Positions 10,656 to 36,700 of a stretch of 53,464 bases of DNA are shown here, piece by piece. A model generated the notes under the pieces. The model did no database searches. It saw only the letters and a list, made by a program, of their open reading frames with translations, and had not been told where the DNA came from. A program made the translations under genes and the position numbers. Source of the DNA: Nitrospirota bacterium (GTDB lineage: Bacteria; Nitrospirota; Nitrospiria; Nitrospirales; NS-4); contig VBOD01000107.1 of NCBI GenBank assembly GCA_005877615.1, forward strand, positions 1 to 53,464, read 5' to 3'. Positions within the stretch are counted from its first letter, which is position 1. The number at the start of each line of letters is the position of its first letter.

Positions 10656-10697
10656 GGGGACAGGCTACTTTTCAAAGTCGAAAAGTAGCCTGTCCCC
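10656..10697. repeat. REP-like perfect inverted repeat
   Basis: GGGGACAGGCTACTTTTC (10656-10673), 6-nt loop AAAGTC, then the exact reverse complement (10680-10697). It touches the stop codon (10698-10700) of the siroheme gene on the minus strand, so it could also end that transcript. Same family as 8663-8713. Elements of this sequence type are, from general knowledge, mobilised by RAYT (Y1) transposases; none is in the window. Confidence 0.85.
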
Positions 10698-27539: not shown

Positions 27540-29735
27540 TCAGACCAGGAGCAGTCCGGCGGTCCGAGCCTGTTGCCACGGGGCCGACCTGGCCAGCGCA
27601 TCGAAGCCGTGCGGCCCTCCCAGTGGATACGCCTCGCGGACTTCTCTGAGCGAGGGGTATCCTTCGCCTCGCTTCTCCCGTGTGGGCGTCGCGGATCGGA
27701 TGAGGTCCAGCAGCCAGTCTGCCTTCTCAGAAGAGAGTCGCACCTCGACGTCTTCGGTCTGATTGGGGAGGATGACTCGGCTCCGGTCATGCCCGTACGA
27801 TTCATTCACCGGCGCGCCCCCGATCCAGACGAACCGACGTTCTGCCGTTGGATCATCGAGAACGGGCGTCTCTTCCAGCACCCGCACAACCCAATTGCGC
27901 GGCACCTTCGGTCGCGGGACCGGGTGGTCGAACCATTGCCGGACATCGGCCATCAATCCTTCCCCACGCATATAAAAGGAGAGGGCGGCTCTCAATCCGA
28001 CGCCGAGCCACTCTGGCGCTTTCTCCGCGGGATCGTCGTGGGTGAGATCGTTCTCCGCAAAGCCGCCGAACGACGGCCCCGTGATGCGGATGCCGTGGGC
28101 CGTTGGATCCAAACCGATTGGACTGTGAGCGGTCGCCACGAACCGGTGCCAGAATGCCGATTGGATCAGTCCGTGCGCGAACAGTTGCCGCACGCGCTCG
28201 AGGGTCTCCACGGTCTCTACGATGGTTTCGCCCGGGAACCCGTACATGAGATAGGCATGCACCATGATGCCGGCGGTCTGGAACGCCGCCGCCACGCGCG
28301 CGGCCTGGGCGACGGTGATCCCCTTCTTCATGGCGTCAAGGAGCCGATCGGACGCCGCTTCAAGTCCTGCAGTGACGGCGACGCATCCAGACGCGGCGAG
28401 CAGGCGGCAGAGGTCCCGCGTGAAGACCGGCTCGAAGCGGATGTTCCCCCACCACGTGATCGCCACTCCCCGTTCCAATAGACATAACGCCAGGCCCTTG
28501 AGCCCCGCCGGTGGCGCCGCCTCGTCCACGAAGTGGAACCCCCGTCTCCCTGTCTCTGCGATCAGCGCCTCGATGCGGTCGGTCAAGATCTCGCTCGGCG
28601 TGGCCTCGTACCGGCCGATGTAGTCCAGGCCGACATCGCAGAAGGTGCACTGCTTCCAATAGCATCCGTGCGCCACTGTCAGCTTGTTCCAGTGCCCGTC
28701 TGACCACAGACGGTGCATGGGATTCAGCACGTCAAGCACGGAGAGATACCGGTCCAGCGCCAGCCCGGCGTAGGTCGGCGTGCCGATCTCGGCCATGCCG
28801 AATTCGGGATCGCGGGCCCCGTCCCGCCACACGACACGCCCCTCCGACCGCAGGAAGGTCCGTCGCAACTCAGCCTCGTCGCGCTTGCCGGCGAGGTGCT
28901 CCAGGAGACAGAGCAGGGGCCGCTCGCCGTCATCTAGCGTCACGTAGTCCACGTAGTCGAACAGACGCGGCTCTTGGAGACGGCGCAGTTCCGTGTTCAC
29001 GTAACCGCCACCGAGCACGATTCGCACAGCAGGCCGCCGCGCTTTCACAGCCTGGGCGATTCGGAGCGCGCCATAGAGGTTGCCAGGGAACGGGACCGTC
29101 AGCCCGAGAAGGGTCGGAGCGACCCCCTCCACGTGCCCCCAGACGGCGTCCAGCAGCATCTCGTCCGTCAGGCTGGGCGGCTCGGCGAGAGCACGCGCCA
29201 CCGCATCGAATGAGGCGGCCGAGACGCCGACGTGCTCCGCATAGCGGCTCAGCGCGAACTGGGGCGACACGGTTTCATGAATCAGATCGGCCAGGTCCTC
29301 CAGATAGAGCGTGGCGAGATACCGGGCCCGGTCCGTCGCGCCCAGTGTTCCGAAGGCGCCGCTCTGCTCGTCAGCATGGGCAAACCGTGGGCCTTGCGGG
29401 AGGAAGCCCCCCTGACAGATCCGAGGCGCCAGCGTCGGATCCTGTCCTTGGAGAAACCAGATCACGGCGTCAATCGAGTTGAGGTAGGCCTGTTCCAACG
29501 CCAGCATCTGCTCGGCTTCGCCCGGCAGGTCTCCCGGCATGGCACGGACACGGTCGAACACGCGCGACAGACCGTCGCGGGAGAGCAACGCGAGGACCAT
29601 CTCGATCCCGACATCGGCCTGCGTCACGTCAGAGCCATGCCGCTTGAGAAAGCCGGTCAAGTAGGCTGTGGAGGGATAGGGCGTGTTGAGCTGGGTCAGC
29701 GGCGGGATCAGCAGGAGGAGACGCGGGGCGCTCAT
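27540..29735 (-). CDS. B12-binding-domain radical SAM protein
   Basis: 731 aa. The N-terminal part (1-300) starts LLLLIPPLTQLNTPYPSTAYLTGFLKRHG, as in cobalamin-binding radical SAM proteins, and includes VRIVLGGGYVNTELRRLQEPRLFDYVDYVTLDDGERPLL. The radical SAM core follows with the cluster motif HGCYWKQCTFCDVGLDYIGRYE near residue 360, then FVDEAAPPAGLKGLALCLLERGVAITWWGNIRFEP and AYLMYGFPGET. A C-terminal domain of about 150 aa is unique. Substrate unknown; similar large proteins are frequent in environmental bacteria. The end of the downstream pseudouridine synthase gene overlaps its start by 4 nt. Confidence 0.9.
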   Translation of the reverse strand: MSAPRLLLLIPPLTQLNTPYPSTAYLTGFLKRHGSDVTQADVGIEMVLALLSRDGLSRVFDRVRAMPGDLPGEAEQMLALEQAYLNSIDAVIWFLQGQDPTLAPRICQGGFLPQGPRFAHADEQSGAFGTLGATDRARYLATLYLEDLADLIHETVSPQFALSRYAEHVGVSAASFDAVARALAEPPSLTDEMLLDAVWGHVEGVAPTLLGLTVPFPGNLYGALRIAQAVKARRPAVRIVLGGGYVNTELRRLQEPRLFDYVDYVTLDDGERPLLCLLEHLAGKRDEAELRRTFLRSEGRVVWRDGARDPEFGMAEIGTPTYAGLALDRYLSVLDVLNPMHRLWSDGHWNKLTVAHGCYWKQCTFCDVGLDYIGRYEATPSEILTDRIEALIAETGRRGFHFVDEAAPPAGLKGLALCLLERGVAITWWGNIRFEPVFTRDLCRLLAASGCVAVTAGLEAASDRLLDAMKKGITVAQAARVAAAFQTAGIMVHAYLMYGFPGETIVETVETLERVRQLFAHGLIQSAFWHRFVATAHSPIGLDPTAHGIRITGPSFGGFAENDLTHDDPAEKAPEWLGVGLRAALSFYMRGEGLMADVRQWFDHPVPRPKVPRNWVVRVLEETPVLDDPTAERRFVWIGGAPVNESYGHDRSRVILPNQTEDVEVRLSSEKADWLLDLIRSATPTREKRGEGYPSLREVREAYPLGGPHGFDALARSAPWQQARTAGLLLV

Positions 29736-30550
29736 GACGCAGTCACCATTACACCCGCCCGCCCCGACTCCGCCAAGACGGAGTCTTTCCCCGTCGCACC
29801 CGCCCGCCCCGACCGCGCCGACACGCGGTCTTTCCCCGGTGTTTCCTGACGGAGGCCGACGGCGGTTAACAACTCGTCGCGTTCCTTAGGCGTGAGGTGC
29901 CGCCATTTCCCGACCGGCAGATCGCCCAGGCGAATGTGCATGATACGGGTACGGACAAGCGTGACGACTCGGTATCCGTGCGCCGAGCACATGCGGCGAA
30001 TCTGGCGGTTGCGCCCTTCCGTCAGCGTGATCCGGAACGTGGTCGCCTCCACCTTCTTCGTCCGGCACGGTCGGGTCTTCTCTCTTAGCACCAGGACCCC
30101 CTTCTCCAGGTGTTTCAGAAAGGACAGCGGGTACGGACGATCCACGGTGACCACGTATTCCCGCTCGTGTCCGAACTCCGCCCGTAGGATGCGGTTGACG
30201 ATGTCGCCGTCGTTGGTGAGCAGGATCAAGCCCGAGGAGTCCTTGTCTAGGCGACCAATGGGGAAGATGCGCTCGGGATAGCCGACGGCGTGCACGATGT
30301 TCCCGGCCACGTGGGATTCCGTGGTGCAGGTCACGCCGACCGGCTTGTGGTACGCCAGGTACGCCAGCGGAGGCCGGCGGGACACCGCATGTCCGTCCAC
30401 GGTCACCACGTCCGCATCAGTTACCTGATCGCCCAAGATCGCCACACGCCCGTTGATCCGGACGCGCCCTTCTTCGATCATCCGATCCGCAGCACGACGG
30501 GAGCAGCACCCTTGTTCGGTGAAGAACTTGTTGATGCGGACCGTGCTCAT
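29732..30550 (-). CDS. rRNA pseudouridine synthase of the RsuA/RluB/RluF family
   Basis: 272 aa. An N-terminal S4 domain (VRINKFFTEQGCCSRRAADRMIEEGRVRINGRVAILGDQV) precedes the synthase with the catalytic Asp in FPIGRLDKDSSGLILLTNDGD and the conserved EGRNRQIRRMCSAHGYRVVTLVRTRI. It isomerises a uridine of 23S or 16S rRNA; the exact site is not decided, though the motifs look RluF/RluB-like. The last 35 residues (PGKDRVSARSGRAGATGKDSVLAESGRAGVMVTAS) are two in-frame copies of a 45-bp repeat and lie outside the normal fold. Confidence 0.9.
   Translation of the reverse strand: MSTVRINKFFTEQGCCSRRAADRMIEEGRVRINGRVAILGDQVTDADVVTVDGHAVSRRPPLAYLAYHKPVGVTCTTESHVAGNIVHAVGYPERIFPIGRLDKDSSGLILLTNDGDIVNRILRAEFGHEREYVVTVDRPYPLSFLKHLEKGVLVLREKTRPCRTKKVEATTFRITLTEGRNRQIRRMCSAHGYRVVTLVRTRIMHIRLGDLPVGKWRHLTPKERDELLTAVGLRQETPGKDRVSARSGRAGATGKDSVLAESGRAGVMVTAS
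29752..29841. repeat. In-frame 45-bp tandem hairpin element, two copies
   Basis: Units 29752-29796 and 29797-29841 share CACCCGCCCGCCCCGAC...TCTTTCCCC. Each holds a perfect 7-bp hairpin: GACTCCG-CCAAGA-CGGAGTC in the first and GACCGCG-CCGACA-CGCGGTC in the second. Two stem positions differ between units and both changes are compensated. On the minus strand the units encode 15 residues each at the C-terminus of the pseudouridine synthase. Confidence 0.85.
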
Positions 30551-35946: not shown

Positions 35947-36681
35947 TCAGACGCCAGGCCGTAGCCAGACCACGTACTCGACGTTTCCCTTCTGACCGGC
36001 GATCGGCGAGCGCACCTCGCCCTTCCATTTCCACTGCTGCGCTTCCACAGCCGTGCGGACCTTCCGGACGGCCTCCTGCCGCAGACTCTCATCACGGACG
36101 ATGCCGCCCTTTCCGACCTTGCCCTTGCCGAGTTCGAACTGTGGTTTGACCAAGGCCACCACCTGGCCCTCTTCTTTGAGACACCGACGCACGGCCGGGA
36201 GGATGAGCGCGAGCGAGATGAAGGAAACGTCAATGGTGGCCAGGTCAATGGGCTCAGGCACCCGTGAGCGGTCCAGGTAGCGCGCGTTGCACCGTTCGAC
36301 CACGACCACCCGGGGGTCTTGCCGGAGGCGCCAGGCCAGTTGGCCGTAGCCGACATCCACCGCATAGACGCGCGCGGCGCCGCGCTGCAAGAGACAGTCC
36401 GTGAACCCACCCGTCGAGGCGCCGACATCCAAGGCGACCAGGCCCTCCGGATTGATGCCGAACGCGTCCAGGCCCGCTGCCAGCTTGAGCCCGCCACGCC
36501 CCACGTACGGGTGCTCCGGCTCGGTGATCTCGATCGGGGCGCCAGCAGGAATGGGTTGGGAGGCCCGGCTGGCAACTCGGCCGGCCACGGTGACGACGCC
36601 GGCCAGGATGAGACTCTGGGCTCGCGCTCGGCTCTCCACGAGCCTGCGGCGGACCATGGCCAGATCCAACCGCTCCGCCAC
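35947..36681 (-). CDS. tlyA: TlyA-family rRNA 2'-O-methyltransferase
   Basis: 244 aa from the GTG at 36681 (MAERLDLAMVRRRLVESRARAQSLILAGVVTVAG), which aligns with the normal TlyA start; the track version adds residues that are xseB out of frame. S4 domain first (1-65), then an FtsJ-like methyltransferase: HPYVGRGGLKLAAGLDAFGINPEGLVALDVGASTGGFTDCLLQRGAARVYAVDVGYGQLAW and the late VVALVKPQFELG. Methylates rRNA riboses in characterised relatives; once called hemolysin. The GTG lies in the loop of a repeat hairpin. Confidence 0.9.
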   Translation of the reverse strand: MAERLDLAMVRRRLVESRARAQSLILAGVVTVAGRVASRASQPIPAGAPIEITEPEHPYVGRGGLKLAAGLDAFGINPEGLVALDVGASTGGFTDCLLQRGAARVYAVDVGYGQLAWRLRQDPRVVVVERCNARYLDRSRVPEPIDLATIDVSFISLALILPAVRRCLKEEGQVVALVKPQFELGKGKVGKGGIVRDESLRQEAVRKVRTAVEAQQWKWKGEVRSPIAGQKGNVEYVVWLRPGV

Positions 36682-36698
36682 GACGGAGTCTTTTCCCG
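36672..36698. repeat. Third copy of the GACGGAGTCTTTTCCC hairpin element, at the tlyA start
   Basis: GCTCCG-CCACGA-CGGAGTCTTTTCCC matches the 29752 unit in its hairpin loop side and TCTTTCCCC tail. It begins directly after the xseB stop (36701-36703, minus strand) and includes the tlyA start codon (complement of 36679-36681) in the hairpin loop. Confidence 0.7.
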
Positions 36699-36700
36699 GG

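Follow-up and report, generated by a model that had tools for sequence, protein, structure and literature searches.

The window analysed here, a stretch of 53,464 nucleotides from the assembly of a Nitrospirota bacterium, carries on its reverse strand a gene (29732..30550) for an RluF-like 23S rRNA pseudouridine synthase of 272 aa with S4 and PseudoU_synth_2 domains, followed on the same strand by a gene for a B12-binding-type radical SAM protein (27540..29735) whose ATG overlaps the rluF stop codon (ATGA). The 3' end of rluF contains two tandem units with a period of 45 nt that are 78% identical and together encode, in frame, 30 residues near the RluF C-terminus (region TPGKDRVSARSGRAGATGKDSVLAESGRAGV); comparison with homologues places this tail after the catalytic domain. 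Unit A, the first in gene direction, occupies 29795..29839 of the reverse strand (covariance-model match 29797-29839, 64.8 bits) and is composed of CCGGGGAAAG-ACCGCG, a loop, and CGCGGTC-GGGGCGGGCGGGTG plus CG; unit B occupies 29750..29794 of the same strand (match 29752-29794, 64.5 bits) and is composed of ACGGGGAAAG-ACTCCG, a loop, and CGGAGTC-GGGGCGGGCGGGTG plus TA, the tandem period supporting both units. Both thus take the form (C/A)CGGGGAAAG - arm - 6-nt loop - arm - GGGGCGGGCGGGTG plus two bases. In unit A the hairpin GACCGCG/CGCGGTC spans 29811..29830 (arms 29811-29817 and 29824-29830, loop 29818-29823) and the conserved G-rich 3' tail lies at 29797..29810 of the reverse strand; in unit B the hairpin GACTCCG/CGGAGTC spans 29766..29785 (arms 29766-29772 and 29779-29785, loop 29773-29778) and the tail lies at 29752..29765, again on the reverse strand. 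Both hairpins were delimited from the sequence and from covariation over 104 copies, and the tails from the list of copies. An earlier note on this DNA had reported the two tandem 45-bp units at the end of the pseudouridine synthase gene and hairpins differing at two base pairs, each changed on both sides; both observations hold, with the net units lying 2 nt off the span it gave.

The two units exceed what chance would produce: a covariance model derived from nine copies detects both of them in the window at E ~5e-15. The nine copies include the two window units, so that the independent evidence comes from the other ~100 copies found elsewhere. When folded in isolation, the window hairpins have unremarkable energies (z -0.9 to -2.1); the signal is covariation across copies. 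The site, when searched, gave no tRNA gene and no RNA gene of another kind, and the element has no Rfam match.

On the coding strand, the family consensus reads CGGGAAAAG - 7-bp stem - 6-nt loop - stem - GGGGCGGGCGGGTG. The three G-tracts of the tail are kept in 98 of the 104 copies, and all four G-tracts (the 5' GGG and the three tail GGG) in 94 of them; the element termini are CGGG and GGGTG, and its two ends do not form inverted repeats. Further copies, for which the earlier note had proposed to look, were recovered by a DNA search of the window genome assembly (1.82 Mb, 131 contigs, 90.5% complete), and the nine-copy covariance model finds ~15 copies in this genome and between 8 and 65 copies per genome in the eight genomes of the window family (f1) that were searched. 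In a second family (f2, apparently Nitrospiraceae), most genomes carry copies. At E<=1e-5, copies were detected in 68 of 296 sampled genomes from the phylum, all of them members of these two families; no other family of the phylum gave a match at this threshold. When the exact DNA pattern was matched against all GTDB genomes, where most matches are unrelated and GC-rich, Nitrospirae/Nitrospira records were among those recovered; we infer that the host group is Nitrospirales, bacteria of the nitrite-oxidizer type. A third copy in the window (36667..36699, reverse strand; 16.1 bits, E 0.033), recognized with the covariance model and by alignment with locus L250, is decayed, with its tail mostly deleted, and sits between genes that we named XseB-like and TlyA-like by reading their open reading frames; at the orthologous site, genome G002 has two full tandem units.

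To compare occupied and unoccupied sites, the flanks on either side of filled copies were joined, used as queries against sister genomes, and then aligned to the matches; once 45 bp are removed, alignments of ~360-400 bases are gap-free against the empty alleles. Clean 45-bp differences were found in uvrA (filled in G002, L253; empty in G001, G003, and G006, L372, L379, and L356), in era (filled in G003, L287; empty in G002, G000, G001, G006, and G007, L352, L377, L378, L375, and L380), in a gene for a ferredoxin/metallo-beta-lactamase-fold (MBL-fold) protein (filled in G002, L254; empty in G003, G007, and G006, L367, L363, and L368), in the citrate synthase gene (filled in G001, L270; empty in G002, L258), and in a gene for a YCF48-like protein (filled in the window genome, L071; empty in G006, L381). 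Neither target duplication nor target loss was seen at the filled/empty junctions. Of 77 distinct sites, 99% have an A directly after the inserted unit, and this target A is already there in most well-aligned empty alleles. Clean 45-bp differences between sister genomes occur between genes as well as inside them. Comparison of sister genomes suggests movement of the element; we infer the polarity, insertion, from the sister species, and precise loss may have occurred at single sites.

At rluF itself, the window gene is longer by exactly 30 codons than its close homologues in G001 and G003, which, as the earlier note had anticipated, lack the tail, and the G007 gene, from another genus, has 15 additional codons compared with that of G006 at the same site as in the window; altogether the tail is absent in three relatives (L025, L026, and L028). 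The overlap of the rluF stop with the radical SAM start is present in filled and empty alleles alike. This site is thus filled in two genera (window and L027 of G007) and empty in sister species of both, which implies either one old insertion that was lost repeatedly or two separate hits. Some orthologous sites are occupied in more than one genus, which indicates that many copies are old.

Most copies are intergenic, and most lie at or past gene ends, many of them just after stop codons; roughly one fifth to one quarter of 104 sampled copies look intragenic, an estimate that is based on codon score rather than annotation. Copies inside genes are read in at least five of the six reading frames and lie in both orientations. 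On average, 5.6 of the 6 frames of a copy are open; a copy inside a gene is predicted to add 15 residues in frame. Further intragenic or gene-end insertions, for some of which the empty site was examined, were found in rimO, recO (two genomes; named by sequence reading, without a family hit), dnaE, dprA, and genes for homoserine dehydrogenase, CusB-type adaptors, M20 and M28 peptidases, and a phosphate-binding-type protein. The peptide TGKxxVSAxxGRAG recurs in unrelated proteins. As in protein-coding palindromic elements, in-frame copies thus occur in unrelated open reading frames, and the proteins of relatives lack exactly the inserted residues.

Copies are also combined with each other and with other repeats. 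Direct tandem copies with a 45-bp period occur in the window and at L250, L251, and L252, and nested insertion into the hairpin loop is of two kinds. In one, the element is nested in the loop of another copy (L062, L060, L263, L265, L267, L290, and L264), and the occurrence of this composite at many loci suggests that the composite itself probably spreads; in the other, an unrelated hairpin lies in the loop, with a model span of 73 nt and a unit of ~75 bp (L054, L059, and L261). One orthologous site has three different arrangements in three sister genomes (L059, L290, and L251). Such tandem and nested arrangements are what one would expect of a mobile unit. The 45-bp element of f2 genomes is often embedded in larger mosaic intergenic repeats of ~100-320 bp (L035, L041, and L412-L418); L041 includes a version of the mosaic repeat without the 45-bp element, with ends GGATGCTGAAAAAG and CTTTTTGAGCATCC. 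A search for an autonomous partner in higher-copy genomes found the G011 element inside such ~100-320 bp mosaics and recognized no transposase.

The 104 family copies show that the family keeps the hairpin while the sequence of the stem varies. Stem cells are paired in 97.0% of cases compared with 77.3% in shuffles, six of the seven stem pairs covary, i.e., are changed on both sides, and 115 double-changed stem cells were observed against 24 expected; sliding of the partner abolishes the covariation signal, and 48 different arm pairs occur among the 104 copies. As the alignments of copies were fitted to the covariance model, and are thus biased towards structure, it is relevant that an alignment of nine sequences made with MAFFT, which is not fitted to the model, gives 95.2% stem pairing; in the f2 copies, an independent set, 94.5% of stem cells are paired. 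The earlier note had interpreted the two stem differences in the window as compensatory changes that keep a structure. The arms do covary across the family; the window changes, however, are differences between copies of a mobile family with many stem variants, and such covariation does not by itself establish compensation within rluF. At one orthologous intergenic site, which precedes a gene read from its sequence as an IlvH-like small subunit gene, G000 (L055) has GGACGCG/CGCGTCC and G006 (L301) has GGCCGCG/CGCGGCC, a double stem change that may have been compensatory within a single locus.

Taken with the clean insertions, these data indicate that the feature in the window is very probably a tandem pair of copies of a palindromic 45-bp element that is mobile but non-autonomous and, within the phylum, specific to two Nitrospirales families. 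Covariation of the stem, the position of many copies directly past stop codons, and, in antisense direction, a stem followed by TTT(T)CCC would also be compatible with a functional RNA or terminator that is not mobile and is kept by selection on RNA structure. The presence of copies within coding sequence, in either orientation and in several frames, orthologous sites that are often empty, the lack of an Rfam match, and the sense-strand position of the window copies within an apparent operon make this explanation very unlikely; in addition, the inner six pairs contain 9 G-T and 4 A-C mismatches, no clear excess of the former, and there is thus no strong RNA-strand signature. Only marginally less improbable is that the RluF C-terminal tail arose as an adaptive extension of the protein and includes repeats by coincidence. 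While insertion at the same site in the genera of the window and of G007 and the preservation of frame are consistent with adaptation, the tail is absent in three relatives, two of which belong to the same genus, and its TGKxxVSAxxGRAG peptide is not confined to RluF. A greater, though still small, probability attaches to the paired stem differences having arisen through hairpin-templated repair (quasi-palindrome correction) and local tandem duplication, with no selection for the hairpin. The tandem pairs of G002 (L250 and L251) are near-identical, which indicates that local duplication happens, and both window units begin with the unusual GGGGAAAG; dispersal and clean insertion at unrelated loci are left unexplained by these processes. 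They are compatible with a mobile element, and hairpin-templated repair could have produced, and may account for, part of the stem covariation without selection for recognition. A classical MITE of the DDE type was rejected, as the junctions show no target-site duplication and the ends are not terminal inverted repeats.

That the 45-bp element is mobile and inserts cleanly is much firmer than any mechanism of its transposition. Its length, hairpin, dispersal, and location at gene ends resemble those of an ordinary REP family mobilized by a RAYT (TnpA-REP) transposase, and Y1_Tnp genes occur in many of these genomes. Such mobilization nevertheless appears improbable, as neither GTAG/GTGG nor CGTC tags the termini of the consensus, no significant copy lies within ~1.5 kb of any of ~50 Y1_Tnp loci in relatives, and several copy-bearing genomes, including the 100% complete G026 as well as G260, G031, G052, G005, and the window genome, gave no Y1_Tnp match; furthermore, a Y1_Tnp fragment in G002 is flanked by a different, GTAG-type palindrome (L094). 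No mobilizing gene was identified in these searches. The absence of REP tags, the lack of Y1_Tnp adjacency, and the fact that CGTC repeats are likewise without a dedicated transposase lead us to prefer single-strand, hairpin-recognized transposition by some putative enzyme as the most likely mechanism, to which we assign slightly less than an even chance. Under this model, the element would move as single-stranded DNA, would be recognized through its hairpin and conserved flanks (CGGGNAAG on one side and GGGGCGGGCGGGTG on the other), and would be cut and joined next to an A by an HUH/Y1-type enzyme or equivalent. Insertions would survive at tolerated protein sites, because their length is divisible by three and their sequence is stop-poor in all frames; in rluF the C-terminal tail would be lengthened while translational coupling to the next gene stayed as it was, and a benefit to the host need not be assumed. 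More speculatively, and in our view rather unlikely, the element may represent a class of miniature single-stranded-DNA transposons that is independent of RAYT and uses an undescribed enzyme, spreads through genes because its unit is a multiple of three (45; nested ~75 and 90), has loops that are themselves targets, and is recognized, perhaps, as a quadruplex-duplex hybrid, with the hairpin placing the 5' GGG beside the tail's three GGG tracts.

The best-known protein-coding palindromic repeats are those of Rickettsia, which lives inside cells and has a decaying genome. Rickettsia palindromic elements (RPEs; Ogata et al. 2000/2002, cited in PMC10969869 and PMC3733652) are described as in-frame, translated insertions in housekeeping genes including truB. 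Like these, the present element is palindromic, dispersed, and found in frame in unrelated housekeeping genes including one for a pseudouridine synthase; unlike these, it is 45 bp rather than ~150 bp long (PMC10969869), has no CGTC terminus, is GC-rich in sequence, occurs in a different phylum (Nitrospirota), and still has most of its copies between genes, and its net 45-bp insertions are resolved by empty sites. RPE-4 and RPE-6 belong to the CGTC super-family, which has an unpaired CGTC at one repeat terminus (PMC3733652), whereas CGTC-like letters occur here only at the stem/loop junction. The resemblance to RPEs proposed in the earlier note is thus borne out by the clean filled/empty pairs in other genes, but does not extend to the terminal tag of RPE-4/RPE-6. 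REPs of the GTAG and CGTC super-families are stem-loops near gene 3' ends that are sometimes intragenic, with targets that include replication/repair and tRNA pseudouridine synthase genes, and CGTC repeats, including two Rickettsia families, have no dedicated transposase (Di Nocera et al. 2013, PMC3733652). The Nitrospirales element is likewise a short stem-loop located near gene 3' ends and sometimes in open reading frames, overlaps with these REPs in target classes, and, like CGTC repeats, has no dedicated transposase that we could find; it differs in having no terminal tag, a long G-rich tail of 14 nt, and direct tandem and nested arrangements instead of the HH/TT dimers typical of GTAG/CGTC REPs. 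REP/RAYT systems use a GT[AG]G guide tetranucleotide (PMC6006769); the present hairpin also has conserved foot sequences, and a single-stranded substrate is presumed by analogy, but there is no GT[AG]G guide at its foot and no element-flanked Y1 transposase gene was found. Short, palindromic, and present in many copies with a common consensus, the element is a REP in the broad sense; it behaves like RPEs and intragenic REPs and lacks the defining tags of both super-families.

We found no description of this repeat family in the literature searched, which comprised open-licence papers; Di Nocera et al. 2013 (PMC3733652) do not mention Nitrospira, and the part of PMC12306157 that reports RepRanger counts of REPs in the Nitrospira moscoviensis genome, and hence REP-like palindromes there too, gives a genome-wide count without family, consensus, or intragenic insertion. 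An unrelated, shorter element does in Nitrospirales what Rickettsia repeats do, and empty sister sites give its insertion at base level. Its targets again include replication/repair genes (uvrA, recO, dnaE, and dprA) and a pseudouridine synthase gene, as for other families (PMC3733652). Within a single clade, it becomes testable which agent mobilizes palindromes that have no tag and whether such insertions give rise to new segments of proteins.

Other repeats were encountered in the same genomes. At 10656-10697, the window has a perfect palindrome with 18-bp arms (GGGGACAGGCTACTTTTC and GAAAAGTAGCCTGTCCCC) whose ends fit the GGGGWSAS motif of inverted repeats beside RAYT-like genes (PMC3733652), and L094 of G002 holds a similar palindrome. 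The different palindrome in L094 that flanks the Y1_Tnp fragment (GTAGGGGCACGGCATGCCGTGCCCCTAC, at ~1044-1071 and 1663-1692) apparently represents, together with that fragment, a GTAG-type REP/RAYT remnant that coexists with the 45-bp family. Finally, a stretch of ~57 bp in the upstream flank of L272 (query 2166-2222) matches more than 20 places across G000-G007 and is probably another dispersed repeat family.
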